This document shows positions 1,246 to 27,507 of a DNA stretch of 27,507 nucleotides, piece after piece. The position numbers and the translations under genes were made by a program. The number at the start of each line of letters is the position of its first letter. The stretch's first letter is position 1. Origin of the DNA: a virus. The stretch spans positions 1 to 27,507 of IMG/VR virus record IMGVR_UViG_3300046010_006546; one strand, 5' to 3'. The notes beneath the pieces are model-generated. The model did no database searches, was not told the origin of the DNA, and worked only from the letters and a program-made list of their open reading frames with translations.

Positions 1246-3223
<1,978 letters not shown>

Positions 3224-3224
<1 letters not shown>

Positions 3225-6396: not shown

Positions 6397-8579
6397 TGCC
6401 CCGCTATTCACAGTATGGTGCGACGGACACGGTGGTTGGAGATGAGGGCGATGTCTCCTTTCTCCGACTAAACACCCGTCTGCGTCCTGACCAGCTCCAG
6501 CCTGGCGATGTGGCGGGGTCTGTGAATGGGCGGATGGATGTAGACGGGGCGTGGCAGGTGAGAAAAGGCGTAGACAGCTTTGGCCCTACCCTGACGGCCA
6601 ATACGGAGGCGCTCATCCTCTCCGCTACCCCGGTCATCAAGCTGTACGGCAGTACGCCGTATGCCATCTCCTCGGCCACCCGCAGCACGACGACAGTCAC
6701 CATCACCACCTCGGCTAGTCACGGGTTTAGCTCCAATACGCTGGTAAACATCTACGGGCTGTCTGGGACTGTGGACCCTAACGGCAACCGGCTCATCACG
6801 GTGACTGGGAGCGCGACGTTCACCTACACCATCACCGGAGCTACAGGGAGTGAAACCTATGGTGGGACGGGGAATGCCCGCAATCCCATCCTGTCCGAAT
6901 CTGCTACGACGGGTGTGTACGGCTCCTGCATCTTTTCCGATCCGTCTACGACGAACACCCGGTACATCCTTCGCGCCACCAATAAGGAGGTGCTGGCGAT
7001 TAACGTGTCTACGGGAGTGTCTACGTCCATCGCCTATCCGTCCGGCGTCACTATCGGTGTCCGGGTGGAGATGCTGCAATGCTTCGACAAGGTGCTCCTC
7101 TTCCGTCCTAGCGGGGTCGCGGCCTTGGAGTGGAACGGAAGCCTGTCTGGTACTCCCGCCTTCACGGTGGTCACCAACGGGACCTACACCCAGCCCGTCT
7201 ATTTCGATGCGGCGGGCAATACGACCATTACCGATGGCGTGGTCACCGTCACCGCCACCAGCCACGGCCTGTCGGTTGGGGATAAGGTGTACGTCATTGA
7301 CCGAGGCTCCTCTGAGCTAGAGGAGGGGGATAAGGACTACACGGTGAGCGAGGTGCCGGGTGTTAGTAGCTTCAAGTTCTACGCCCAGGTGAGGGATATG
7401 GCGGCCAACTTGGTCGTCATCTCCAAGAAGGTTAGCTCTGGACGAGGATTCGTCCATATGCCCTCCCCGGAGTTCGGCGTCTACCACCAGCGTCGTCTGT
7501 GGGTGCCGTACACCCATAACAGCGGTAATCCCGGTACTAGCCGTAATCGGACGGACGAAATCATCGCCTCCGACATCCTCGACTACAACACCTTCGACCA
7601 GCTTCAGAACCAGTATCGGATTACTGCCGGCGTAGCCGACTACGTCATCGGCATCGAGCCCTTCGCGGAGGACAATCTCTTGGTGTTCAACCGCAACTCC
7701 ATCCATCTGATTCGGGGAGTGGGCGGGGCTTTGACGGATACGACCACCCAGCTCATCACGACAGAGGTGGGATGTGTGGCTCGCCGCTCCATCCTCCAAG
7801 TGGGTAATCAGGTGATGTTCCTGTCCGATAACGGGGTGTACGCCGCCCAGTTTGGCGACCTGTACAACCTCCGTGGGGCCGGGGTTCCGTTGTCGGAGCC
7901 CATCAACAGTCTCATCCAGCGTATCAACCGTAACTACGTCGGAAACAGCGTCGCGGCCTATTTCAACAACCGCTACTATCTGGCTATCCCGTTGGACGCC
8001 TCGACGGTGAACAACGCCATCCTGATTTATAATTTCTTGAATCAGGGGTGGGAGAGCCTAGATACGACCGGCCAGAACGGGTGGGAAATCCAGAACTTCT
8101 TGGTCGTGGATAGCGGGGGGTTGTCCAAGCTCTACACCGTTAGCTCCTCCGGTTCCATTCACATCGTGGATGAGCGTTCTGCGGGGAGTGACCGTCTAAG
8201 CCTCTTTGCCGGCGTGCCTGCCACGGTCTACTCCATAGCCCCGAGTGTCACCACCCGGCAATATGCCTTTGGTCAGCTTGGCCGGAAGAAGTTCTCCACC
8301 TACGAACTGCACGTAGAGAGTTCGGAGTCTGAGAGTAGCGAGGGCACCATCTCCATTGACATCGAGAATCCCGACTTCTCGGAGGCCCTATCCACCATTA
8401 GCGCCCTAAATGGGGAGACTCTAGGAGTGGGGGAAGACACCTCCCTGCGTGGTAGAATCGGCAACAAACGTGGCTACGCCGCCCAAATTGTCTTAACTCC
8501 CAGTAATGGGCGTCCCAAGCTCCGGGCGGTGAAGTTGCAGGCGTCCCTCACCGACCCAACCATCACTTCCAAGTCCTAA
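6396..8579 (+). CDS. Tail nozzle / tail tubular B-like or P22 gp10-like stabilisation protein
   Basis: A 727-residue protein, the expected size for podovirus nozzle proteins that cap the portal and gate DNA. It opens with LNTRLRPDQLQPGDVAGSVNG and VDGAWQVRKGVDSF, describing a ring of beta modules. It includes two Ig-like or beta inserts with repeated phrasing (TVTITTSASHGFSSNTLVNI and VVTVTATSHGLSVGDKVYVI). The middle (residues about 355-560) has the characteristic block YHQRRLWVPYTHNSGNPGT ... NTFDQLQ ... EDNLLVFNRNSIHLI ... SDNGVYAAQFGD, which I associate with P22 gp10-type stabilisation and T7 gp12-type proteins. Fibre genes flank it. Assignment is by size, order and motif memory; the exact subfamily is uncertain. 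Confidence 0.7.
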   Translation: MPRYSQYGATDTVVGDEGDVSFLRLNTRLRPDQLQPGDVAGSVNGRMDVDGAWQVRKGVDSFGPTLTANTEALILSATPVIKLYGSTPYAISSATRSTTTVTITTSASHGFSSNTLVNIYGLSGTVDPNGNRLITVTGSATFTYTITGATGSETYGGTGNARNPILSESATTGVYGSCIFSDPSTTNTRYILRATNKEVLAINVSTGVSTSIAYPSGVTIGVRVEMLQCFDKVLLFRPSGVAALEWNGSLSGTPAFTVVTNGTYTQPVYFDAAGNTTITDGVVTVTATSHGLSVGDKVYVIDRGSSELEEGDKDYTVSEVPGVSSFKFYAQVRDMAANLVVISKKVSSGRGFVHMPSPEFGVYHQRRLWVPYTHNSGNPGTSRNRTDEIIASDILDYNTFDQLQNQYRITAGVADYVIGIEPFAEDNLLVFNRNSIHLIRGVGGALTDTTTQLITTEVGCVARRSILQVGNQVMFLSDNGVYAAQFGDLYNLRGAGVPLSEPINSLIQRINRNYVGNSVAAYFNNRYYLAIPLDASTVNNAILIYNFLNQGWESLDTTGQNGWEIQNFLVVDSGGLSKLYTVSSSGSIHIVDERSAGSDRLSLFAGVPATVYSIAPSVTTRQYAFGQLGRKKFSTYELHVESSESESSEGTISIDIENPDFSEALSTISALNGETLGVGEDTSLRGRIGNKRGYAAQIVLTPSNGRPKLRAVKLQASLTDPTITSKS

Positions 8580-11664: not shown

Positions 11665-12459
11665 ATGGCCGTCTTTGGATCAACCATTAATCCCGCCTTG
11701 GGGCGGGTAGACTACTCGCCGCTCGCTCAGGGCATCGCCCAGGGAGGGATGTTGTCCGCGCAGGGAATCGTCAATCTTGGGCAGGGACTTGCCCAAGGGA
11801 TCCAGACGTATGTCCAGAAGCAGGAGCAGAAGAAGGAAGAGGAGCAGGCTACTACGGCTATTGGCCGCATCCTGAAGAGCAATCCCGGCCTAGCTACCCA
11901 GCTCAATGTTCCTATTGATGAGGCGGGGGACTTTGACCGTGGAGCCTTAAGGGCCGCCATCAAGGGCGCTGGTGGTCCGGCGAATGCTCTTAAGCTCGCG
12001 GCCACCCTAGAGGAGCTTGGCGTGCAGCGTCAGGCCCGCCAGCAGCAGGAGCAGGCTGCGTCCTATGCGGCTATGCTCCGTCAGGGTGGTGGTCAGGTGC
12101 CTTCCCCTGTTAGCAATCAGGCTCTGGCCCAACTCAGCCCGCAGGCTCGTATCGCTGGTGAGGCGGCCTATCTTCAGAGCGAGCAGGCGCGGGCCAACCT
12201 TGGAAAGACCCAGGCCGATACGGCTGAGGCGCGTGCTCGTGCGGCTGCGCTTGCCCTTCCCAAGGCGGGGCCTCGGCTTCCCTCCGAAGAAGCCTTAGTT
12301 CAAGCTAAAATTAAAGCTTGGGAGGATGAGAATCCTGGAAAGACTCTTCCTAGTTCGGAAGAAGCCAAGATTCGGGCGTCTGCACGGGCCGATCTTCGTC
12401 CGGTTACCACCATCAATACCGGAGACAATGTCACCGAGAAATTGGTGGCTGAACGCTAG
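11665..12459 (+). CDS. Internal virion protein, N-terminal part ending at an in-frame amber codon
   Basis: Residues 1-264 of what looks like one continuous 426-codon gene. The N-terminus (GRVDYSPLAQGIAQGGMLSA ... LGQGLAQGIQTYVQKQEQKKEEE) is a Gly/Gln-rich helix pattern known in podovirus ejection proteins; the rest is strongly helical and Ala-rich. The frame is interrupted by TAG at 12457-12459 in the phrase VTEKLVAER-stop-FADRDTAV. The downstream half continues in the same frame without any shift. It starts 5 bases after the first ejection-type gene. If translation stops here the product lacks the conserved C-terminal helical domain. See the separate amber entry and the downstream part. Confidence 0.7.
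   Translation: MAVFGSTINPALGRVDYSPLAQGIAQGGMLSAQGIVNLGQGLAQGIQTYVQKQEQKKEEEQATTAIGRILKSNPGLATQLNVPIDEAGDFDRGALRAAIKGAGGPANALKLAATLEELGVQRQARQQQEQAASYAAMLRQGGGQVPSPVSNQALAQLSPQARIAGEAAYLQSEQARANLGKTQADTAEARARAAALALPKAGPRLPSEEALVQAKIKAWEDENPGKTLPSSEEAKIRASARADLRPVTTINTGDNVTEKLVAER
12457..12459 (+). other. In-frame UAG codon inside an ejection-type gene
   Basis: The codons around it read CGC TAG TTT. A single C-to-T change from CAG (Gln) would explain it, giving the smooth phrase AERQFADRDTAV. UAG is also used as a normal stop by other genes here (15902, and the - strand genes ending at 15871 and 17734), so the phage does not avoid it. Options are a nonsense mutation in this sequence, suppression or readthrough, reinitiation, or a sequencing error. 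Confidence 0.8.
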
Positions 12460-12947: not shown

Positions 12948-15902
12948 ATGCCCTCCTACACGATTCGGGATTCCAAGACCGGCAAAACACTAGTCGTCCG
13001 GGGAGACTCACCTCCTACGGAGGCTGAGATGGAGCAGCTGTTTGCATCTCAGCCTGAGGCTACTCCTGCCCAAGCCGAGGTTCCTGCACCGCAGCCTGTT
13101 GCTCAACCCGTCACTTCGGTCACTCCCGAGCAGGCGCGGCCCACCTTTGAGACGCCAACGGCTATGTCTGGCCGTAACTTTATGGTGTCCGGCTTCCAAG
13201 CCGCACCGGAGGCCCAGGCTCAGGGCGTCGTTGGGATGGCTCGCTATGCCGCACCTGTGGCCGCTACGCTGGCTACTGGTGGCCTAGGGCTGGTGCCTGC
13301 GATGGTGGCTAGTGGCGCGGCTACGGCGGGTTCCGAAGCCCTGGCGCAGGGCTTGGAGGGTGAGGCTGGAATGCGGGATGCCCTCAATCTGCGTCAGGTG
13401 GCGGCGTCTGGCATTGCCGGGTCTGTTGTTCCTGTGCCCCTGCGGATGGCTGCTGGTGCTGTGCCTTCCGCCAGTCAGTCGGTGGTCAACTTCCTGACCA
13501 ATGCCGGGGCTATGACCTCGGCCAATGAGGCTGCTCGGCTGGTGGAGAAGGGCGAGTTTGAGGCCCCGAAGGGTGTTGCCGACTACCTCCTGCGTATCGG
13601 GGCTCCTGTGGCTCTGGCTGGTGTTGGTACGGCGGCGTCGATGTCTGTTGCCCGTCAGCAGGCCCGCATCGCCAAGGGAGATGCCCTAATCAAGGAACGC
13701 TTTGGCGCGGTGCCTATGTTGGGCGAGGTGATGCCGGGCCTATCGGAGTTTGAGGCTCGCCGCTTCCAAGGGAACAACGTCATAGCCCGCCGTGCGGCGG
13801 AGAATATGGACGCCAACTTGGCCGGCGTCGTTAAGGCCGAGCTTGTGGACAAGGCTCCCAACCCAGACAAGATTGCCCGTCAGCTCCTTCCCTACGTGCA
13901 GGACGTGGAGCAGCTTCGGACTGCCGCGACTCAGGCGCGGGTTAAGGCTGACAATCTGGCTAACCAAGCCACTCAGGCCACCACAGCCGATCTGGTTCTT
14001 GCCCGTCGTCTGGCGGATGAGGCAGATGCTGCTGCGGTGGAAGCCGTCAAGCAGCGTGCCCTGTACACCGAGGGCACCGAGAGGATGCTGGGAAGCTCTA
14101 TTACGGACGTTTCTGACGTGGCTAAGGGCAATCGTCTCCAGAAGCTGACGGAACTAGCCGATGCGGCGGAAAAGTCGGTTAGCGTTGGTTTGGGACGCCT
14201 TTACGGCAAGGCCGGCCTTGAACTGACTGCCCCCGTGGCGCGGGTAAGTGAAGTCCGCAAGAACATCGCTCGGATGGTGAGTGACCCGGTTGAGTCCGGT
14301 CAGTTGATGGAGATGTTTGACGCCGCGATCAAGAAGCCCGGGATGCTCACCAATGGTGGTGATCTTACCTTGGCTGGCTATCGCAATGTCCGGGACCTCA
14401 TCTCCGATGGTCTGGTGACTGCCGGTGGTGATCGTACTGCCGCCACCCGTAAGGCTGGACAGGCTTACAACGCCGCTAAGGCGGCCTCGGAAACCTACAT
14501 CTCCAAGGTTTACCCGAAGAACGTGGCTGATTCGTTCAAGGCTGCCAATGGGGCCGCCGCTTCGGTGTTCCAGAACCGCACCGGGGTCATTGACGACATT
14601 CGTGCGGGGAACATTGATCGGGTGGTTAGCCTAATCGAGGACCAGGGTTATGGTCCGGTGGCTAAGGCCATCCAAGACTATTCCTCAGCCTTGTCTGGCA
14701 TTGGTGATGATGCCTCGCGTGCCGCCTCCAAGCAGTTCGTGGCGAATATGGCGGGTAGCATCAGAGATCATCTGGTGGACACCTCGATGCGGTTGGGTGA
14801 GGGTGTGGACAACGCCACTAAGGCGCTGGATGTTTCCAAGTTGGTTAAGCGGGTGGATGCCCTTCGCCAAAAGGGAATGAGCCCGGAGGCACTTGGGTTC
14901 CCGAATGCTGATGCCGTGCAGGCTTTGGCCCGTGTCGCCTCCACGCCTAACAAGGCGATGGATATGGGTTCGTTGACCCGGTTTATGGACGACGTGGCTC
15001 TGTCCGGCGTCCCCATTGCCGAGGCCCGTCTGTCCTACGACGATGCCCTGCGTAAGTACCTGACCGCCTCCAATGCGGCGGAAAGCACGCGGGAACTCAA
15101 TCGTCTCAACGACCTTCGCAAGAAGGCTGAGTTTGGTGCCGGCGAGGCCGATGCCGCCTATCAGCGGGCAGTGAATGATCCGTTGGTCAGGCTCTTCAAT
15201 GAGCCCGGTCTTAGCGTTTCCCCGGTCGCTGGGGCCAATCCTGAGTATGTAGGCAAGCTCCTGTCCGCAGGTGAGAATGGGGTGAAGCGTCTTACCGCTG
15301 CCCTCCAGACTCCGGTTCCCGGCAGTCCTGAGCTAACCATCCGCCGCTTAAACAATCTGGCTGCCCTGAAGAAGAGCGCCGTGGCTGACGTGTTTGGCGA
15401 GACCTTTCGGGCAGCCCTTGGGCCTGGCGACCAGCGCCTGCGTCTGGAACGCATCACCGACTTCTTCTACGGACCCACGCAGAAGACTGAGCGAGATGCC
15501 TTCCGTTCCTTGGTGGGCAAGGAGGAGTTCAACAACCTCCAGCAGCGGTTTGCGGAGCCCATCAAGCGCATCTTTGAGCAGCGCAAGAAGCTGGGTGTGG
15601 CTATGGGGGACATCCGCGAGGATCTAATCGTGGCATCCGGCAGTTTGGGTCAGCTCCAAGGCCGTAGTACGGCGGGCGTCATCTTGGGCAACTATCTACG
15701 TCGGGCCTTTGATGCCATCTCCAACCGTGGCTACAACGTCCTCTACGGGCTCTACGTTGACCCAACCATCTCCCGCGACTTCCTGAAGGCTAAGGGCGAC
15801 ATCAACGCCTTTGTTAACTCCAACCCCCGCAATGCTCTGATGTACCAGATGATGCTGCGGGAGGATGAGGCTAACAATCCTCAGCAATCACCGGCCAGAT
15901 AG
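12948..15902 (+). CDS. Large internal virion (DNA-ejection) protein, 984 aa
   Basis: The largest protein in the window. Residues 1-34 (MPSYTIRDSKTGKTLVVRGD then SPPTEAEMEQLFAS) form a short N-terminal module often found at the head of podovirus internal virion proteins. Residues about 35-70 are a Pro/Ala/Gln linker. Residues about 90-240 include several Gly/Ala hydrophobic segments (VVGMARYAAPVAATLATGGL, LVPAMVASGAATAG) able to enter a membrane. The rest is a long helical, charged region without recognisable catalytic motifs; I see no lysozyme-type signature. It is the third protein of the ejectosome set. It stops with TAG at 15900-15902, and its 3' end overlaps the last - strand gene by 32 bases. 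Confidence 0.75.
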   Translation: MPSYTIRDSKTGKTLVVRGDSPPTEAEMEQLFASQPEATPAQAEVPAPQPVAQPVTSVTPEQARPTFETPTAMSGRNFMVSGFQAAPEAQAQGVVGMARYAAPVAATLATGGLGLVPAMVASGAATAGSEALAQGLEGEAGMRDALNLRQVAASGIAGSVVPVPLRMAAGAVPSASQSVVNFLTNAGAMTSANEAARLVEKGEFEAPKGVADYLLRIGAPVALAGVGTAASMSVARQQARIAKGDALIKERFGAVPMLGEVMPGLSEFEARRFQGNNVIARRAAENMDANLAGVVKAELVDKAPNPDKIARQLLPYVQDVEQLRTAATQARVKADNLANQATQATTADLVLARRLADEADAAAVEAVKQRALYTEGTERMLGSSITDVSDVAKGNRLQKLTELADAAEKSVSVGLGRLYGKAGLELTAPVARVSEVRKNIARMVSDPVESGQLMEMFDAAIKKPGMLTNGGDLTLAGYRNVRDLISDGLVTAGGDRTAATRKAGQAYNAAKAASETYISKVYPKNVADSFKAANGAAASVFQNRTGVIDDIRAGNIDRVVSLIEDQGYGPVAKAIQDYSSALSGIGDDASRAASKQFVANMAGSIRDHLVDTSMRLGEGVDNATKALDVSKLVKRVDALRQKGMSPEALGFPNADAVQALARVASTPNKAMDMGSLTRFMDDVALSGVPIAEARLSYDDALRKYLTASNAAESTRELNRLNDLRKKAEFGAGEADAAYQRAVNDPLVRLFNEPGLSVSPVAGANPEYVGKLLSAGENGVKRLTAALQTPVPGSPELTIRRLNNLAALKKSAVADVFGETFRAALGPGDQRLRLERITDFFYGPTQKTERDAFRSLVGKEEFNNLQQRFAEPIKRIFEQRKKLGVAMGDIREDLIVASGSLGQLQGRSTAGVILGNYLRRAFDAISNRGYNVLYGLYVDPTISRDFLKAKGDINAFVNSNPRNALMYQMMLREDEANNPQQSPAR

Positions 15903-22192: not shown

Positions 22193-22392
22193 GACTGCGC
22201 CTCCTTTAGGGCTTCGTCTATTTCAGCCTTCACCTGTTCAGGCGTCCAACGATGCCAACCACGACAGAACTTAACTCGGTCTTCTTCGTCTAAGTTAATA
22301 AACCAGTTTAGCCGCGCCGAGTCCTTCCGCAGCGCGGCGTTCTCACGCTGGAGATTTGCAATCATTTCCCTCGGAGTTGTTGGATTGCTCAC
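22189..22392 (-). CDS. Coiled-coil small protein B of a duplicated pair (67 aa)
   Basis: GTG 22392 overlaps the TGA of the preceding paralogue (GTGA). Product of 67 residues: MSNPTTPREMIANLQRENAA then LRKDSARLNWFINLDEEDRV and KFCRGWHRWTPEQVKAEIDE, ending ALKEAQS. The N-terminal part is a coiled coil (IANLQRENAALRKDSARL) and the rest a compact Trp-rich unit. It aligns with protein A upstream through ENxALxxDxxRLxW, a later W, and a C-terminal KEAQ. Unknown function. Confidence 0.65.
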   Translation of the reverse strand: MSNPTTPREMIANLQRENAALRKDSARLNWFINLDEEDRVKFCRGWHRWTPEQVKAEIDEALKEAQS

Positions 22393-22646
22393 GGCTGCGC
22401 CTCCTTTCGGGCCAAGTCGATGACATCGCGAGCCGTGCCGTGTCTCCAGTTTTGGTTTTTGCTCAAAACAGGGAACGTCAGCCAGCAGCCTGTGTTGGTC
22501 AGCCAATCCAACCGTTCCTTGTCTGCCTGCAGCGCGGTGTTCTCGGCCAGTAGCTCCTTTATCTCCTTATTGAGCCCATCAATGGTTTTTTGCATCTCGG
22601 CTGCTACAGAGCCGGGCTTAGGCTGAAACAATTCTTCAAACTTCAT
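22389..22646 (-). CDS. Coiled-coil small protein A of a duplicated pair (85 aa)
   Basis: I start at ATG 22646 because AAAGGAG lies 8 bases before it; an earlier ATG at 22709 would run into the upstream gene and has no ribosome site. The 85-residue product (MKFEELFQPKPGSVAAEMQK then TIDGLNKEIKELLAENTALQ) has a long coiled coil (MQKTIDGLNKEIKELLAENT) followed by ADKERLDWLTNTGCWLTF and a C-terminal DLARKEAQP. It shares the ENTALQADKERLDW segment and KEAQ end with the next gene, so the two arose by tandem duplication. This type of protein (coiled coil, RLDWL, W near the end) is common in phages without known function. Confidence 0.7.
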   Translation of the reverse strand: MKFEELFQPKPGSVAAEMQKTIDGLNKEIKELLAENTALQADKERLDWLTNTGCWLTFPVLSKNQNWRHGTARDVIDLARKEAQP

Positions 22647-22662
22647 TTGACCAACTCCTTTG

Positions 22663-22938
22663 TTATTCGGGTTTAATTCCTGTTGCCATCCACTCCGCGC
22701 ACAACGCATAGCCGTGGATGTCCACCCAGTTGTCGTCCTTGTGCTGGTAAGCCTGGCGGCGCAGCTTTAGTCCAATCATCAGCAAAGGAACATCCTGAGC
22801 CGTGATGGGTGCGTGGAGCTTGTGTTGAAGAATGCCGTTCCAAATGAGAGCTGTGCCCTCAAAGTCGGCCTTAGGATTGCCGTAGGAGTCCTGTCGGTCT
22901 CCCGTTACTACCTTTAATGCTTCGTCGATGTAGCTCAT
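22663..22938 (-). CDS. DUF6378-like phage protein (91 aa)
   Basis: ATG 22938 overlaps the TGA of the 32-residue gene as ATGA. The 91-residue product reads MSYIDEALKVVTGDRQDSYG then NPKADFEGTALIWNGILQHK and LHAPITAQDVPLLMIGLKLR, closing YQHKDDNWVDIHGYALCAEW. This is the pattern (A-x-x-V-x-GDRQDxYGxPxxxF, xDVxLxMxxLKLxR, DNxVDixGYAxC) I know for DUF6378, a conserved phage protein; the related MazG-like fold is a reasonable comparison. It may act on nucleotides. The C-terminus ends about 16 bases before the coiled-coil gene start. Confidence 0.8.
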   Translation of the reverse strand: MSYIDEALKVVTGDRQDSYGNPKADFEGTALIWNGILQHKLHAPITAQDVPLLMIGLKLRRQAYQHKDDNWVDIHGYALCAEWMATGIKPE

Positions 22939-23033
22939 TCGTCGTAATCCGGGCCGTTGTCCGATTGGTACACCACCCCGATGACAAACCCGATGAGGGC
23001 TGAGATGGCTATGGCTGCGAGTAGAAGGGTCAT
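22935..23033 (-). CDS. Tiny membrane protein (32 aa)
   Basis: A very short gene: ATG 23033 overlaps the TGA of the preceding gene (ATGA) and its own TGA overlaps the DUF6378-like start (ATGA). The product, MTLLLAAIAISALIGFVIGV then VYQSDNGPDYDE, is one transmembrane helix with an acidic C-terminal tail. The precise nesting between two coupled starts is strong support. Function unknown; tiny single-helix proteins recur in phages. Confidence 0.7.
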   Translation of the reverse strand: MTLLLAAIAISALIGFVIGVVYQSDNGPDYDE

Positions 23034-23221
23034 TGCGTAAGTCCCATTGAGATTTGGAATTTGGCATCCCGCACCGCCCAGAGGGCGTTCTCCCGCATCA
23101 ACTCCCGCCAGAACTTTGAATTCTGGGGGTAGTGCTTTGCCACTAGGCTGTAAGCCTGTGCGCGGCCAATGCTCCAGTTGGAAAATCCACCTTTGCGGAT
23201 TTGGGCTTTAAGGGCTTTCAC
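23030..23221 (-). CDS. Small basic hypothetical protein (63 aa)
   Basis: GTG at 23221 overlaps the TGA of the first gene of the operon (GTGA). The 63-residue product begins MKALKAQIRKGGFSNWSIGR and continues AQAYSLVAKHYPQNSKFWRE. It is basic and helical with scattered Trp. No family recognised. It is followed by the 32-residue membrane gene by ATGA overlap. Confidence 0.65.
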   Translation of the reverse strand: MKALKAQIRKGGFSNWSIGRAQAYSLVAKHYPQNSKFWRELMRENALWAVRDAKFQISMGLTQ

Positions 23222-23388
23222 GAGGCCACCTCCTTCTGGTTAATCCAGTCGAGATGGTAGGTGAGCACCTCAATCTTCGCATTCTGCTCGTAGAGCAGTT
23301 GGATCGCGGCTTTGATGAGGTCGGCTTGCTCTGAGCAACTAACCTCCAGTTTGGTTTGGAGCCCGTAGGCGATGTCTTTGATGTCCAT
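23218..23388 (-). CDS. Small protein, first gene of the leftward replication operon (56 aa)
   Basis: ATG 23388 to TGA (23218-23220) encodes 56 residues: MDIKDIAYGLQTKLEVSCSE then QADLIKAAIQLLYEQNAKIE and a helix ending NQKEVAS. The helical, charged pattern suggests a small dimeric protein. Its stop overlaps the next GTG (GTGA). The leader ahead of it (GAACCACGAAGAAAA) is A/C-rich with at best a weak ribosome site. No family recognised. As the first gene it is a good reference for mapping the operon promoter. Confidence 0.65.
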   Translation of the reverse strand: MDIKDIAYGLQTKLEVSCSEQADLIKAAIQLLYEQNAKIEVLTYHLDWINQKEVAS

Positions 23389-23417
23389 TTTTCTTCGTGG
23401 TTCGTGTCTTTGTTGGG

Positions 23418-23434
23418 GCCGGCTTGTTGCCGGC
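23418..23434 (-). promoter_or_regulatory. Hairpin in the leader of the leftward operon
   Basis: GCCGGC - TTGTT - GCCGGC forms a six-base-pair stem with a 5-base loop, 30 bases upstream of the first start codon (23388). No T-run follows on the - strand, so it may stabilise or regulate the mRNA rather than terminate it. Confidence 0.4.
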
Positions 23435-23567
23435 TGCTAAAGTTGGAGCAGATTTTCCGTCAGTCGCCAAGCTCATTTCCTGTGCCCGGAATCCCGGCCT
23501 TTGAGAATCAACACTTTGTATCGTATTTGAGTCAAAATCCTCTCATTTCTGATCTATTGGGATGGAA

Positions 23568-23638
23568 ATGTCTCATTTACCTCTCACTTATGAGTGATTA
23601 AGGGGTTAATGTCTCACATATCGGACTTTATGAGACAT
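23568..23638. repeat. Three ATGTCTCA/TGAGACAT boxes with a hairpin
   Basis: Exact octamer ATGTCTCA at 23568-23575 and 23609-23616, and its inverse TGAGACAT at 23631-23638. The last two form an inverted pair with a 14-base spacer. Between the first two lies a perfect stem TCACT-TATG-AGTGA (23584-23597). Clustering in an A/T-rich stretch upstream of the replication operon suggests a protein-binding site set, either an operator or origin iterons. Confidence 0.55.
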
Positions 23639-23682
23639 AAGGCGCGATATACCGGACGTTAACCCTTAAAAAATGGGGTTAA
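23603..23682. repeat. GGGTTAA/TTAACCC repeats
   Basis: GGGTTAA at 23603-23609, TTAACCC at 23659-23665 and GGGTTAA at 23676-23682. The last two form a 7-base-pair hairpin with the A-rich loop TTAAAAAATG. They interleave with the ATGTCTCA boxes. Confidence 0.5.
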
Positions 23683-23752
23683 GGCACATTGGGCTGTGCT
23701 TTATGCGGCTCCTGTAAGGACGCCGCTCCGGGTCGCCGCCTTAGGGTGTAAG

Positions 23753-23770
23753 AAATACTAGGTAGTATTT
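23753..23770. promoter_or_regulatory. Operator-like 18-base palindrome
   Basis: AAATACTA-GG-TAGTATTT has 8-base arms that are exact inverse complements around a GG centre. Its size and symmetry fit binding by a dimeric HTH regulator. There is no adjacent gene for such a regulator; the HTH-like protein at 21131-21334 is one candidate. Confidence 0.45.
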
Positions 23771-24057
23771 TCAACAAACTGCCCTTAGCCGAGATGCAGA
23801 GACTTCCATAGCCTTTCGGCCTGGTTGACTAGTCCCGGTGGCTGCTTCCCGGAAAAGAATCCCGGTTTCGGTGGCGATCCAACTGCCCTTGAGCCTGAGT
23901 GCTTTCGCTCCCACGCCTCGACTATCGAAGTCTCAACAAGTTTCATCGAGGTCTTTTGACCGCCTATCCTATCCACGCTGAGTGTGTCGCCGTTTAAGGC
24001 GTCCGGGGCCTATGGGGCTGATACGTGGCCGGAACCCTACGGGGCTCCTAAAAGCAA

Positions 24058-24092
24058 GAAGCCCGGCGAGGTACGACTCTCGACCGGGCTTC
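24058..24092 (-). terminator. Leftward terminator-like hairpin
   Basis: Arms GAAGCCCGG (24058-24066) and CCGGGCTTC (24084-24092), extended by CGAG/CTCG (24067-24070 with 24079-24082), give a strong stem with one bulged base. On the - strand it is followed by TTGCTTTTAGG, a modest T-rich tail. It would end transcription arriving from the endolysin region. Confidence 0.55.
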
Positions 24093-24191
24093 CCCCGAGA
24101 CTTCCCAGGGAGTAGATTGGTTGAGCGGGCCGTACACCGCAACTGACAACGACTGAACTAAGGGGTAGACGTTTAAGCACAAGTCTTAGAT

Positions 24192-24515
24192 GTGTTCTAT
24201 TGTTATGTTTCTGCTAAGATGTTGCGGATTAGTGCCTTAAGGCATAAAATAGTCCTGTGCCAGTTAGTTCCAAAATGGAAATGCTTGCGCCGCAGGCCGG
24301 GTCGATGCCTTAAGGGCTGCTTGGAGCTAACCCTCGAATCCCCGCAGGAATCCCCGAAGGGTTCCCCGAAGAAATCCCCGAAGGGTATGTCCCTTAAGGC
24401 CCACCCCGGCGCTTCGCTGCCTCCAGGGTTCGTTGTGCGGCCTTTTACGGTGTTTAAGGAGAAAAACCGTACGTGGATATGGCACGAACCAGAAAACCCG
24501 CCAAAATCGATTTAA
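24192..24515 (+). CDS. Doubtful Lys/Pro-rich open frame (107 aa)
   Basis: An open frame over the tandem-repeat area. The middle encodes LESPQESPKGSPKKSPKGMS, repeats of the S-P-K-K/G type known from histone H1 and other DNA minor-groove binders; the end reads PGFVVRPFTVFKEKNRTWIW. No ribosome site stands out and the N-terminal part (FYCYVSAKMLRISALRHKIV) is not convincing. It could be a real small basic protein starting at a later ATG, or a product of repeats only. Confidence 0.25.
   Translation: MFYCYVSAKMLRISALRHKIVLCQLVPKWKCLRRRPGRCLKGCLELTLESPQESPKGSPKKSPKGMSLKAHPGASLPPGFVVRPFTVFKEKNRTWIWHEPENPPKSI
24299..24315. repeat. 17-base direct repeat, copy 1
   Basis: GGGTCGATGCCTTAAGG, identical to the copy at 24601-24617, 302 bases away. 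Both contain a CCTTAAGG palindrome. Confidence 0.85.
24337..24384. repeat. Four tandem 12-base repeats
   Basis: Units at 24337-24348 (AATCCCCGCAGG), 24349-24360 (AATCCCCGAAGG), 24361-24372 (GTTCCCCGAAGA) and 24373-24384 (AATCCCCGAAGG). The word AATCCCCGC recurs further right in the window (24555, 27212, 27261), suggesting a dispersed element. Confidence 0.8.
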
Positions 24516-24585
24516 AGGGCATTTGCGGGCATTTATGGGGCGGGTAAAGCCGCCGAATCCCCGCACCCCGGCGCTTAAAACCACC

Positions 24586-25008
24586 TTAAGGGGGATTTTG
24601 GGGTCGATGCCTTAAGGCGTTTGCTTGGGATTGGGCCTTTAAGGGCCATTTCTGGACAAAGGATAGGTCACGGGAAAGTGCCTCCGCCTTGCGAGAATAC
24701 GCAGTTTCCGCATTTCGGGTTACGGGGACCGAAAAGGGACCGTGGCGCCAGGCGTTCGCCCTATTGCGGGCATTATCGGGCAAGCCTCGCCGGGCAAGGG
24801 TCGCGCCCGTATACGCCCGGAAAAGGGCAAAGCTGCCCGCTAACGTGCGGGGATCCCCTTTCACCCCTAGCTTCGCGCAATCCGCAATCACGCCCGGTTT
24901 GATTTGCGCGGGCCCGATGGCTGCACCATTTCGGGCATTCAAATCCCCGCCGCTTTCCAGCTGCACAATAGCCAAGAAGAGGGAAAGGAGCGCGGAGGAA
25001 TCGGGCAC
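24586..25008 (-). CDS. Lytic transglycosylase (SLT-like) endolysin
   Basis: A 140-residue protein with the core of SLT-type transglycosylases: LAIVQLESGGDLNARN (catalytic Glu18), AAIGPAQIKPGVI (residues 30-42) and the closing helices with ARNRANAWRHGP, comparable to the ANxWNxG/GP segment of the family. It cleaves peptidoglycan glycan strands at lysis. No signal peptide is present, so it needs a holin. The only workable start is GTG 25008, which directly follows the T-tract of a terminator, with no ribosome site visible. The low-complexity last 25 residues (QSQANALRHRPQNPP) are unusual. The lysis genes on the + strand lie about 20 kb away. Confidence 0.75.
   Translation of the reverse strand: MPDSSALLSLFLAIVQLESGGDLNARNGAAIGPAQIKPGVIADCAKLGVKGDPRTLAGSFALFRAYTGATLARRGLPDNARNRANAWRHGPFSVPVTRNAETAYSRKAEALSRDLSFVQKWPLKAQSQANALRHRPQNPP
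24601..24617. repeat. 17-base direct repeat, copy 2
   Basis: GGGTCGATGCCTTAAGG, identical to 24299-24315. This copy lies inside the 3' end of the endolysin gene, just before its stop. Confidence 0.85.
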
Positions 25009-25033
25009 AAAAAAAGGCCCACCGAAGTGGGCC
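25009..25033 (-). terminator. Rho-independent terminator on the - strand
   Basis: GGCCCAC (25016-25022), CGAA loop, GTGGGCC (25027-25033), with seven As at 25009-25015 on the + strand. Read leftward this is a stem GGCCCAC-TTCG-GTGGGCC followed by seven Ts, a textbook terminator. It lies between a tiny membrane gene and the endolysin start. Confidence 0.85.
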
Positions 25034-25053
25034 CGATAGGCAAGGGGAAAGGC

Positions 25054-25146
25054 TTAGCTAAGGAGGACGTAAAGGGCGCTCGCGACTAGCGAACCCAAGC
25101 CCGCAAGCAACCATAAGGCGGAAAGGATAAAGTGGTATCGTTTCAC
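25054..25146 (-). CDS. Tiny membrane protein beside the endolysin (30 aa)
   Basis: GTG 25146 overlaps the TGA of the upstream Cys-rich gene (GTGA), and TAA is at 25054-25056. The 30-residue product MKRYHFILSALWLLAGLGSL then VASALYVLLS is a basic start and one long hydrophobic helix. It precedes the endolysin, separated by a terminator, which raises a holin-like idea, but that is speculative for 30 residues. Confidence 0.65.
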   Translation of the reverse strand: MKRYHFILSALWLLAGLGSLVASALYVLLS

Positions 25147-25820
25147 GTGGTCGCGATTGCGGAAGCCTTGCGCTTTTGTGTTCCGTGTGCGGGGAAGCCA
25201 ATGATCACGGAACGTTCCGCCCTTTGGCAAAGTTGGCAAGACGCGCAGGAAACGCCTTCCCGGTAGGTTGCGGGGCAAATGATCACTTTGCGCCCCGCTG
25301 GCGTGGTGCAATTGGCCTTTCGGCTTTCGGGAAGCACGCAAACCACGGGCCCCGCTTTGGTTTCCGCTAGCGTGTCGGCGTGCGCCAGGGAATTGGCGGA
25401 AAGGTTAACCGTAAATCCCCGGGAATTGGCTTCCCGGATTAAACGCAAATTGCCCCGCAAGCGTGTTTTGTGCGAATAGGTGAACCCTCGCCGCCCGCGA
25501 TTGGCCCGCATAAGGGCCCGCAATTCCGCAGCGTTCACCCTTTCGCCCTCCCCGGGAAGGTCGCCAGCCTGATTATGGCGCCAAAGCTGGCCCGGAGGAA
25601 GCGAAGCGATTTCCCCGCAGAATTTGCCCCAAGCCATTCCGCGCTCGCGTGCCGTGACTTTCCGCCAATGCAAAGCCAAGGGCCCGTTTCCCGCATAGCA
25701 ACCGCCGCCCCTGTTAAAAGGACAAGACGGAGGACAAGTGGCGGAAGACGTAGTGGAAACGGGAATGGGGCCCGTCTTTACGTTCCCGGACGAAAGGGAA
25801 AGGTGAACCCACGTTTTCAT
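25143..25820 (-). CDS. Cys-rich conserved phage protein (225 aa)
   Basis: A 225-residue protein with the recurrent phage pattern LSSGNVKTGPIPVSTTSSAT, CPPSCPFNRGGGCYAGNGPL, then LWRHNQAGDLPGEGERVNAA, RGFTYSHKTRLRGNLRLIRE, FTVNLSANSLAHADTLAETK and CPATYREGVSCASCQLCQRA, ending IIGFPAHGTQKRKASAIA. I know this as a DUF7227-like family (family number from memory) common in phages and of unknown function. Clustered Cys (CPPSC...C near residues 29-42 and CASCQLC at about 191-197) suggest a metal or Fe-S site. Start ATG overlaps the previous TGA (ATGA) behind a GGGGAGGA sequence. Its stop overlaps the tiny membrane gene. Confidence 0.75.
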   Translation of the reverse strand: MKTWVHLSLSSGNVKTGPIPVSTTSSATCPPSCPFNRGGGCYAGNGPLALHWRKVTARERGMAWGKFCGEIASLPPGQLWRHNQAGDLPGEGERVNAAELRALMRANRGRRGFTYSHKTRLRGNLRLIREANSRGFTVNLSANSLAHADTLAETKAGPVVCVLPESRKANCTTPAGRKVIICPATYREGVSCASCQLCQRAERSVIIGFPAHGTQKRKASAIATT

Positions 25821-26137
25821 TCCTCCCCCCCTTCAAAGTCAAAGCCATCTTCCGCCAGGATTTCCCGCACGCATTCCTTCGCTTGCGCGAGGCATTCCCG
25901 GGTATTCTCCAAAGTCACGCCTTCGGATTCAAAGCGGCTTTGCCAATCGTCGCGGAAATCCATTCCGCAGGGCAAATCCGGCAAGTCTTCGATGGAAAGA
26001 CCGCCCGCAAGCTTGCGCGTTGCAAGGTCAAGATAGGCGCTTGCCAATTCCCGCCCGCCCTTGCGTGCGTAAATGCTTTGCGCGACTTCTAAGGGCGTGC
26101 GCTTCAGTTTGGCTTCCGTGGCTTGTGTCGTTTGCAT
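25817..26137 (-). CDS. Acidic small hypothetical protein (106 aa)
   Basis: ATG 26137 gives 106 residues (MQTTQATEAKLKRTPLEVAQ then SIYARKGGRELASAYLDLAT), ending in a highly acidic EDGFDFEGGEE. A TTG at 26170 would add 11 residues and is less likely. The core is a helical bundle without known motifs. The end overlaps the next gene (ATGA). Acidic tails of this kind can mimic DNA, but that is an inference only. Confidence 0.6.
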   Translation of the reverse strand: MQTTQATEAKLKRTPLEVAQSIYARKGGRELASAYLDLATRKLAGGLSIEDLPDLPCGMDFRDDWQSRFESEGVTLENTRECLAQAKECVREILAEDGFDFEGGEE

Positions 26138-26170
26138 CTGTTTATCTTTTGTTTCGGTAGTTGCTGGCAA

Positions 26171-26509
26171 TCAGAAGTTGAGAACTAGGTAACCTTCCTC
26201 AAAGCCAATGACTTGCGTGTTGTCAGCAAGCCATTCCCACGCTTTGCGCTCGCTGGTGTCGTCTCGTTCCTCGCCTTCGGGGGTTTCCGGCGCTTCCCAG
26301 CCGTAAGCTTCCGCAGCCTCAAAAGCGTCTTTGTACTCCGTCCATTCGCAGCATAGGGCAATCGGGTCAAATTCCGTTTCCTCCCCCAAGTCTTGCTCTA
26401 ATTGGTCCAAGTAGTCGAAAAGGGCGACAAGCGCAGGGCGAGAAAACTGATTCGGTCGCAGGGTCGCGAAGGCTTGGATGAAGCGGGATTCGGTAACAGT
26501 CTCTTTCAT
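26171..26509 (-). CDS. Acidic conserved phage protein (112 aa)
   Basis: A 112-residue acidic protein: SRFIQAFATLRPNQFSRPAL then VALFDYLDQLEQDLGEETEF, DPIALCCEWTEYKDAFEAAE and the end LADNTQVIGFEEGYLVLNF. The pattern (RPxNFSrxxLxxLFDYLexLEeDxGEexExDxIALCCxWxEY ... dNTxVIxF) is one I recognise from many phages, function unknown. A two-Cys segment (LCCEW) is typical. ATG 26509 has AAAGGAACC just upstream, a good ribosome site. Confidence 0.75.
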   Translation of the reverse strand: MKETVTESRFIQAFATLRPNQFSRPALVALFDYLDQLEQDLGEETEFDPIALCCEWTEYKDAFEAAEAYGWEAPETPEGEERDDTSERKAWEWLADNTQVIGFEEGYLVLNF

Positions 26510-26519
26510 GGTTCCTTTC

Positions 26520-26533
26520 GTGTGTGTGTGTGT
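26520..26533. repeat. (GT)7 microsatellite
   Basis: Seven GT units on the + strand lie in the short gap between the acidic conserved gene and the 29-residue membrane gene. On the - strand this is a CA-rich leader for the acidic gene. A second (GT)5 lies at 26635-26644. Confidence 0.85.
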
Positions 26534-26536
26534 GGT

Positions 26537-26626
26537 TCAGTCGAAAAACCCGCAGAAGCCAAGGGCAACGGCGGATAAAATGGCGAGAAGAGCGAGGCAA
26601 GCGAGGGTTTCGAGTGTGCGTTTCAT
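26537..26626 (-). CDS. Tiny membrane protein (29 aa)
   Basis: ATG 26626 to TGA 26537-26539 encodes MKRTLETLACLALLAILSAV then ALGFCGFFD: a basic start, one helix, and a short aromatic tail. Its leader is CA-repeat DNA (CACACACACACAAAAACGA) rather than a ribosome site. It is the third tiny membrane protein on the - strand. There is no overlap with its neighbours, so confidence is lower. Confidence 0.5.
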   Translation of the reverse strand: MKRTLETLACLALLAILSAVALGFCGFFD

Positions 26627-26634
26627 TCGTTTTT

Positions 26635-26644
26635 GTGTGTGTGT
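26635..26644. repeat. (GT)5 microsatellite
   Basis: Five GT units upstream of the 29-residue gene, the partner of the (GT)7 tract on its other side. Confidence 0.8.
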
Positions 26645-26674
26645 GCTTTGCTGCCGTAGTGGCGGCAAACCTAT

Positions 26675-26692
26675 GCCCCCCCGAAAGGGGGC
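26675..26692 (-). terminator. GC-rich hairpin without T-tract
   Basis: GCCCCC - CCGAAA - GGGGGC, a six-base-pair GC-only stem with a hexaloop, lies between the 56-residue gene and the 29-residue gene. On the - strand no T-run follows, so it is a weak terminator or an mRNA 3' stabiliser. Confidence 0.4.
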
Positions 26693-26704
26693 AACGGTTT
26701 GGCG

Positions 26705-26875
26705 TCAGTCCGCCGGGAATTGCTTCCGGTATTCGGCAAAGGCCCGGTCAAAGGCCTCCGCGCTCGCCAAGGCCCGGGAAACATCCCGGCCCGCGTCCCC
26801 GCTTTCAACGTAGGCCCGGAGCGCAGCCTCGCGAAGGGCGTTGTCCAAAAGGGCAAGGGTAACGGTACCGTTCAC
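26705..26875 (-). CDS. Small Ala/Arg-rich hypothetical protein (56 aa)
   Basis: GTG 26875 overlaps the TGA of the previous gene (GTGA), supporting it. The product is MNGTVTLALLDNALREAALR then AYVESGDAGRDVSRALASAE and AFDRAFAEYRKQFPAD. It is helical, with an AALRAYVESGD segment related to the SAFRAYVAALD unit of the upstream protein. Function unknown. A strong AAAGGAGGTG precedes the GTG. Confidence 0.65.
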   Translation of the reverse strand: MNGTVTLALLDNALREAALRAYVESGDAGRDVSRALASAEAFDRAFAEYRKQFPAD

Positions 26876-27063
26876 AGGGCACCTCCTTTCACGCTAGCCG
26901 TCCAAGAGTCCAAGGCGGCAACATAGGCGCGGAAAGCGGAATCGTAGGCGGCACTAGCGGCAGCCTCGGCTTCGGTGCCGACCGCGGCGAAATAGGCGCG
27001 GAAAGCGGATTGCTTGGCGGCAAAGGCGGAAGCCTCGGCGTTTTGTAGGTCTTGCGTGGTCAT
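26872..27063 (-). CDS. Ala-rich protein with internal repeat (63 aa)
   Basis: ATG 27063 to TGA 26872-26874: MTTQDLQNAEASAFAAKQSA then FRAYFAAVGTEAEAAASAAY and DSAFRAYVAALDSW. The motif SAFRAY occurs at residues 19-24 and 42-47, a 23-residue period. The repeat is also exact at DNA level (18 bases). It is likely a short helical bundle. No family recognised. The leader is A/C-rich (GAACCACAAAAAAACACA) without a ribosome site. ATG choice is favoured over longer upstream frames, which run into the T-poor tract. Confidence 0.65.
   Translation of the reverse strand: MTTQDLQNAEASAFAAKQSAFRAYFAAVGTEAEAAASAAYDSAFRAYVAALDSWTASVKGGAL
26923..27009. repeat. 18-base direct repeats inside the Ala-rich gene
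   Basis: ATAGGCGCGGAAAGCGGA is identical at 26923-26940 and 26992-27009, 69 bases (23 codons) apart. They encode the two SAFRAY units, so the duplication is relatively recent or conserved. Confidence 0.85.
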
Positions 27064-27507
27064 TGTGTTTTTTTGTGGTTCGCTTCCGGGTATCCCGGTT
27101 GCGTGGTATACATAGAAACGGCTTTTCCGTCGCGTGCAAGACTTTTCTTCAAAAAAGTTGTCGGCCCGTTTCCCGAGGGAAGCCGGTCCCCGCAAGCCAG
27201 CCAAGCAACGGAATCCCCGCCAACCAAAGGCCCAAGGGAAGCCAAGCAAGCCAGCCAGGAAATCCCCGCAGCCAGGCAAGCGAATCCCGGCACTCCAAGC
27301 CAGCCAAGGGAAGCCAGCCAAGGCCCAAGGTCCCCGCAATCCGAAACCCCGCAACCCAAGGCGAACGGAAGGGAGAAGAAGGGAAGGGAAAGCCCAACCC
27401 TTCAAAGCCAAGGGAAGGGAAGCCCAAGGGAAGGACGGTGCCGCAATCGGGGAAGGCGACGGTGCCGCCAAGGTGCTGCCAAGGGTGCTTCAGACGGTGC
27501 TTCAACC
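27064..27507. other. T-depleted region at the right edge, no supported gene
   Basis: In 27181-27480 I count 14 T among 300 bases on the + strand. The text is built from short words such as CCAAGGGAAG, AAGCCAGCCA, AATCCCCGC and GACGGTGC (three times near the end). Because T is nearly absent, no stop codon occurs in any + frame, so the open frames here mean nothing. A W-rich hydrophobic frame on the - strand is also a composition artefact. The region may continue beyond the window. Confidence 0.6.

Follow-up and report, generated by a model that had tools for sequence, protein, structure and literature searches.

An array of oriented repeats next to a structured RNA element in the early region of an uncultured phage group

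The 27,507 nucleotides of viral DNA analysed here (IMG/VR record IMGVR_UViG_3300046010_006546, referred to below as the window) contain six copies of the word CCTTAAGG, and five of them lie within positions 24235–24617. What such a concentration of a short word is for, and whether it belongs to this genome or to a group of phages, is the question raised by this locus. A preliminary description made from the window alone reported the five-copy cluster, a 17-base direct repeat that holds two of the copies (GGGTCGATGCCTTAAGG), a 12-base palindrome (TGCCTTAAGGCA) and a single further copy in coding DNA near 11945, and all four were found as described (Table 1; the sixth copy is at 11945). The count is well above the chance level: dinucleotide-preserving shuffles of the whole window contained a mean of 0.49 copies and none out of 100 reached six or more; likewise, the densest 385 nt hold five copies, versus a maximum of two in 300 order-2 Markov sequences. 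The word is nearly absent from the rest of the window and from the rest of the closest complete relative.

Table 1. Features of the locus in window coordinates
Feature	Position	Strand	Remarks
Degenerate motif unit GGATTTGGGCTTTAAGG	23205..23213	+	5' end of next - strand ORF; weight-matrix score 22.8
Conserved core of RNA element	23778..24046	- (probable)	helix 23799-23806/23927-23934; invariant CGTAGGGTTCCGGCCACGTA
hp1, terminator-like hairpin, loop GTCGTAC	24059..24091	-	U-rich tract 24046-24058 next on - strand
hp2, GCGG-loop-CCGC hairpin, loop GTACGGC	24125..24140	-	loop complementary to hp1 loop
17-nt unit GGATTAGTGCCTTAAGG	24226..24242		carries copy 1
CCTTAAGG copy 1	24235..24242	.	within TGCCTTAAGGCA 24233-24244
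CCTTAAGG copy 2	24308..24315	.	inside direct repeat GGGTCGATGCCTTAAGG 24299-24315; kept in L005, L051
Small + gene, conserved 3' part (MSLKAHPGASLPPGF...PKSI)	24389..24515	+	third-position excess, dN<dS
CCTTAAGG copy 3	24392..24399	.	start of conserved part of + ORF; kept in L006, L051
CCTTAAGG copy 4	24584..24591	.	stop codon of lysozyme-like ORF; kept in L006
Lysozyme-like ORF	24586..25008	-	conserved synteny; transglycosylase/lysozyme-like by eye
CCTTAAGG copy 5	24610..24617	.	second GGGTCGATGCCTTAAGG 24601-24617; kept in L005, L006, L051
CCTTTAAGG, 9-base motif form	24636..24644	+	26 nt after copy 5
Intrinsic-terminator-like hairpin and T run	25015..25041	-	just upstream of lysozyme-like gene

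Related contigs were gathered with the DnaB-like helicase encoded by the window genome (30 contigs), with an invariant 20-mer of an adjacent RNA element (24 hits) and with a pattern of two successive units (17), in sets that overlap. Every relative is a contig from a metagenome, and none from culture was found; many of the contigs are incomplete or have kinship with each other, and several gene names were assigned by eye. Among known phage records no DNA match was obtained for window positions 22300–27000, and the helicase is at most 28.5% identical to its counterparts among the best matches listed. The closest complete relative, G001, has 38,626 bp and was taken as a complete genome because its ends overlap by 123 nt. 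Its late genes, among which the small and large terminase, portal and capsid genes were recognised by eye, are on one strand and its early genes on the other; a profile search with PF03354 returned nothing for the large terminase, and the TerL-like ORF of G001 was the one seen by eye.

In these relatives the word is part of a longer unit of 17–18 nt, GGATTYG.CCTTTAAGG on the window plus strand, that was found in approximately 35 related contigs. The alignment of 93 sites shows GGATT, then three or four variable bases, and then CCTTTAAGG; this 9-base form is the commoner one in the relatives, and the window lineage has mostly the 8-mer. The core bases of the unit are conserved at approximately 90–100% and the spacers vary. 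A weight matrix refined on the units of the relatives was scanned over its own training sequences, 35 contigs with 369 kb in total, and detected 219 sites, all of them on one strand and none on the opposite strand; since each contig had been turned by its own motif before the scan, this figure shows one direction within contigs only. With respect to the conserved neighbouring genes, too, the unit always has the same orientation. The emphasis that had been placed on the palindrome is therefore not supported: the conserved feature is asymmetric and points in one direction, and its left half varies without a matching change in the right half.

The place of the units is shared by the relatives as well. 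The gene order in the relatives is DUF6378 (minus strand), RNA element, small plus-strand ORF, a pair of motifs, lysozyme-like gene (minus), motif array and DUF7227 (minus), so that the units occupy the junction of the small plus gene and the lysozyme-like gene, and in relatives also positions upstream of minus-strand genes. In whole records nearly all the copies of CCTTTAAGG are in this one locus, and isolated exact 9-mers outside it are rare (e.g., in L018, L010 and L005). G001 carries all four of its CCTTAAGG copies (at 12979, 13221, 13413 and 13439, spanning 12979–13446 or approx. 0.46 kb), its sole CCTTTAAGG and every one of its five CTTAAG sites in the interval bounded by the lysozyme-like gene and the RNA element, in a place equivalent to that of the window cluster. 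The distant relatives L042, L059, L064 and L066 have tandem arrays of three to five units at 17–18 nt upstream of minus-strand genes; in L064 and L066 this gene is a DUF932 gene, at a distance of approximately 100 nt. The array of L022 takes up the whole gap of approximately 60 nt that separates a minus-strand terminator from the lysozyme ATG (by eye). Judged by these comparisons, the window carries at this place its own form of an array of oriented 17–18-nt repeats that is specific to this phage family; as a motif family it is kept in the relatives that have the same flanking genes. Neither of the observations that would have refuted the preliminary description, frequent occurrence of the word elsewhere or loss of the cluster from such relatives, was made. 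The unit-unit pattern had no match in 84,980 bacterial and archaeal genomes of GTDB, and for this reason a common host repeat, or one derived from the host, was ruled out. A resemblance of the unit to the 16S 3' end/Shine-Dalgarno region was judged a coincidence, because the units do not lie at a fitting distance from start codons. A long non-coding stretch was observed upstream of the arrays in L014 (approx. 7850–8060, window orientation), L022, L031 and L064, with several small hairpins whose loops are A-rich (GGGGAAACACCC, GAGGAAAACACCTC, GGGGAAAATTCCCC) and a repeated ACTACGTAGG.

The cluster had been placed in a gene-poor stretch, and this part of the description needs correction, as genes are present. 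A small plus-strand gene, whose open frame reaches upstream to 24192/24219 and ends at 24515, runs through it, and the lysozyme-like ORF reaches into the cluster, with copies 4 and 5 on its stop codon and 3' end. Third-position changes are in excess in every pair compared for the plus ORF, and its last 40 codons gave a dN of 0.039 and a dS of 0.331 between the window and L006; by this measure, these codons (24389–24515) are under purifying selection. The C-terminus of the small gene resembles an ORF of approximately 60 residues (orf60) found in the same place in distant relatives. Within the open frame, positions 24339–24386 form a 12-nt tandem repeat (AATCCCCGAAGG) coding for ESPQESPKGSPKKSPKG, and the number and order of its units differ in L005 and L051 with the reading frame preserved. 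The lysozyme-like ORF had no match in Pfam or PHROG.

Short repeats with no function of their own, multiplied through slippage or recombination, would account for several of these features: copy number and spacing shift quickly between relatives, the tandem spacings (17, 18, 26, 27 and 36 nt) are near multiples of 9, units are found both inside and outside genes, and the array of L022 is duplicated. On the other hand, orientation and synteny stay constant even among relatives with no more than 53% helicase identity (L042), and the unit core is kept where the spacers vary. Neutral spread fits a constant direction and place poorly, and we regard it as unlikely.

The reading that we favour, as a tentative one, is that the array is a set of binding sites for a phage protein that controls early leftward transcription in the manner of an operator or stoperator. 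The presence, specificity, orientation, synteny and copy-number turnover of the units, and their lineage-specific occurrence at transcription-unit boundaries of the early region, are the features on which it stands; the CCTTAAGG words would then probably be docking sites for this putative protein. A phage-encoded DNA-binding protein would sit on several units at once and, once bound, would gate early leftward transcription at the unit boundaries, as operators and stoperators do. Several observations count against it. No sigma-70-like promoter was found in 22800–25200; some units are inside coding DNA (the small plus ORF and the 3' end of the lysozyme gene), which would be odd for a pure operator; and the window lineage has a small number of units, degenerate in sequence and set at irregular distances (73, 84, 192 and 26 nt), in addition to the scanning of the matrix on its training sequences. 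No candidate for a cognate repressor was found among the proteins scanned. The only clear winged-helix protein nearby (HTH_36) is present in a subgroup only and, being absent from the window lineage, was ruled out as the general binder.

The stoperators of cluster A mycobacteriophages (L5, TipsytheTRex) are asymmetric repeated sites of 13 bp, with more than 20 of them across the genome, that are located at promoters and in short gaps between genes, have a direction that follows transcription, and are bound by the phage immunity repressor, which stops elongation (PMC9283540). The array units are similarly asymmetric, have one orientation relative to the flanking genes and resemble them in placement; unlike those stoperators, they are 17–18 nt long, often in tandem, and confined to approximately 1–2.5 kb. 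Because they lack the genome-wide spread, we say that the array may work like a stoperator and not that it is one. Cluster K mycobacteriophages have an asymmetric repeated motif near gene starts that is specific to a phage group. The array shares these traits and differs in that many of its copies are at gene ends or inside genes, with no fixed distance to starts; these start-associated sequences of cluster K are the subject of PMC3203893.

The main rival to protein-binding control sites is a replication origin, in which the tandem units would be iterons for a phage initiator beside an AT-rich unwinding region. This is the arrangement of iteron plasmids and of the lambda origin, where tandem iterons bound by the initiator are next to such a region. 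Tandem same-direction repeats of 17–18 nt in three to five copies, as in the relatives, agree with the approximately 17–22 bp of iterons (approx. 17–19 bp in the systems compared), and in L042, L064 and L066 AT-rich tracts lie beside the arrays (by eye); a DnaB-like helicase is encoded in the genome and the HTH_36 protein is close by in some relatives. The window conforms only loosely, with an irregular array and no clear AT-rich tract at the cluster. Moreover, there are at least two separate arrays per genome, no initiator gene common to all carriers was found, and G001 shows no GC-skew turning point at the cluster, as an origin had been expected to do. An origin is therefore considered unlikely, even if, together with a repressor site array, it is one of the earlier suggestions that remain candidates. 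The other two, packaging and partition, are unsupported. A single clustered location in the complete genome would suit a pac, cos or partition site; nevertheless, the small terminase gene of G001 is 2.3 kb away in a divergent late module and nothing partition-like was seen among the genes examined, which makes such a site highly improbable.

The units could also act in the transcript, if adjacent copies paired with each other and in this way directed processing, attenuation or termination. Self-complementary units allow neighbours to pair, and part of the arrays have better folds than their shuffled versions (z from -2 to -4.7). Most arrays, in contrast, fold at least as well on the plus strand even though upstream arrays precede minus-strand genes, z is close to 0 for some pieces of the window, and changes in the left half of the unit (GCTTTAAGG) go unmatched on the right. 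We consider such an RNA-level signal quite improbable.

A conserved structured RNA element lies next to the array. Its sequence, at 23778–24140, does not code for protein and has indels of lengths not divisible by three, yet its similarity between distant relatives exceeds that of the flanking genes (up to 84% over 200 nt). The 8-bp helix of its core has approximately five compensated variants. The hp1 loop is complementary over 7–10 bases to a stretch 36–64 nt upstream, mostly the hp2 loop, in nearly all the sequences scanned. The match that the scan reported for L016 contains G.U, although inspection by eye shows a perfect fit of the hp2 loop; for L066 the script chose a wrong hairpin, and by eye its loops match in the way seen in L042. 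An alignment of 13 sequences showed changes on both sides at each of the five core pairs of the loop-loop helix, with 100% of the cells paired, and for the whole structure 96.9% of the cells were paired versus 83.9% in shuffles and less than 50% when it was slid. Approximately 11 different hp1/hp2 loop pairs were seen, all of them complementary (e.g., CCATCAC/GTGATGG, CTAGCGGA/TCCGCTAG and GTCTAAGCC/GGCTTAGAC). These many compensatory changes are strong support for a predicted loop-loop pairing. The minus strand is the probable sense of the modelled fold, because it folds better against shuffles (z of -10.0 versus -7.9), because a U-rich tract follows hp1, and because A.C cells on the plus strand become G.U on the minus strand (the kissing pair of the window and L006, and stems of L005, L015 and L066, by eye). 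Two direct repeats, 23778–23799 (ACTGCCCTTAGCCGAGATGC) and 23882–23902 (ACTGCCCTTGAGCCTGAGTGC), lie approximately 100 nt apart in the core and by eye co-vary as direct and not as complementary copies (ACTACCCCTTTTT twice in L016, ATTGCGCT twice in L042).

Rfam covariance models gave no match over the element, in the window and L040 to an E-value of 1 and in eight relatives at the gathering score. GOLLD and ROOL are large structured phage RNAs with kissing loops whose function is not known (PMC12286853). The element resembles them as a structured phage RNA with predicted kissing loops, and is different in being shorter (approx. 0.4 kb), in its sequence and in the absence of an Rfam match.

The array and the RNA element are separable modules, since L036, L040 and L043 carry the RNA core without the array; these three share few genes with G001, and in L036 a tRNA adjoins the element. 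In L008, L013, L019, L023, L026, L030, L057, L061, L062, L065 and L067 the core is swapped for the winged-helix HTH_36 gene and hp1 and hp2 are kept. It is conceivable, though doubtful, that array and RNA belong together as a single control cassette of the early region, of a previously undescribed kind, in which a minus-strand terminator-like hairpin, with a loop that kisses the loop of an upstream hairpin through a phage-specific pair that varies yet stays complementary, would be gated by a protein on oriented repeats upstream.

A word count in one genome has thus become a family-wide, testable feature of an uncultured group of approximately 38-kb phages. The array also led to a structured RNA element that Rfam does not contain; many compensatory changes back its predicted loop-loop pairing. 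Kissing loops act as specificity determinants in plasmid copy control and in phage pRNA; if the loops had this role here, the element would be a new riboregulator and its variants a natural set of orthogonal loop pairs. Elsewhere in the window, the right end (27180–27507) is of low complexity, with AAGCCAGCC/AATCCCCGC repeats and no obvious gene, and positions 1533–3224 encode a collagen-like protein with Gly-X-Y repeats (GPTGPTG) amid tail-fibre-like genes.
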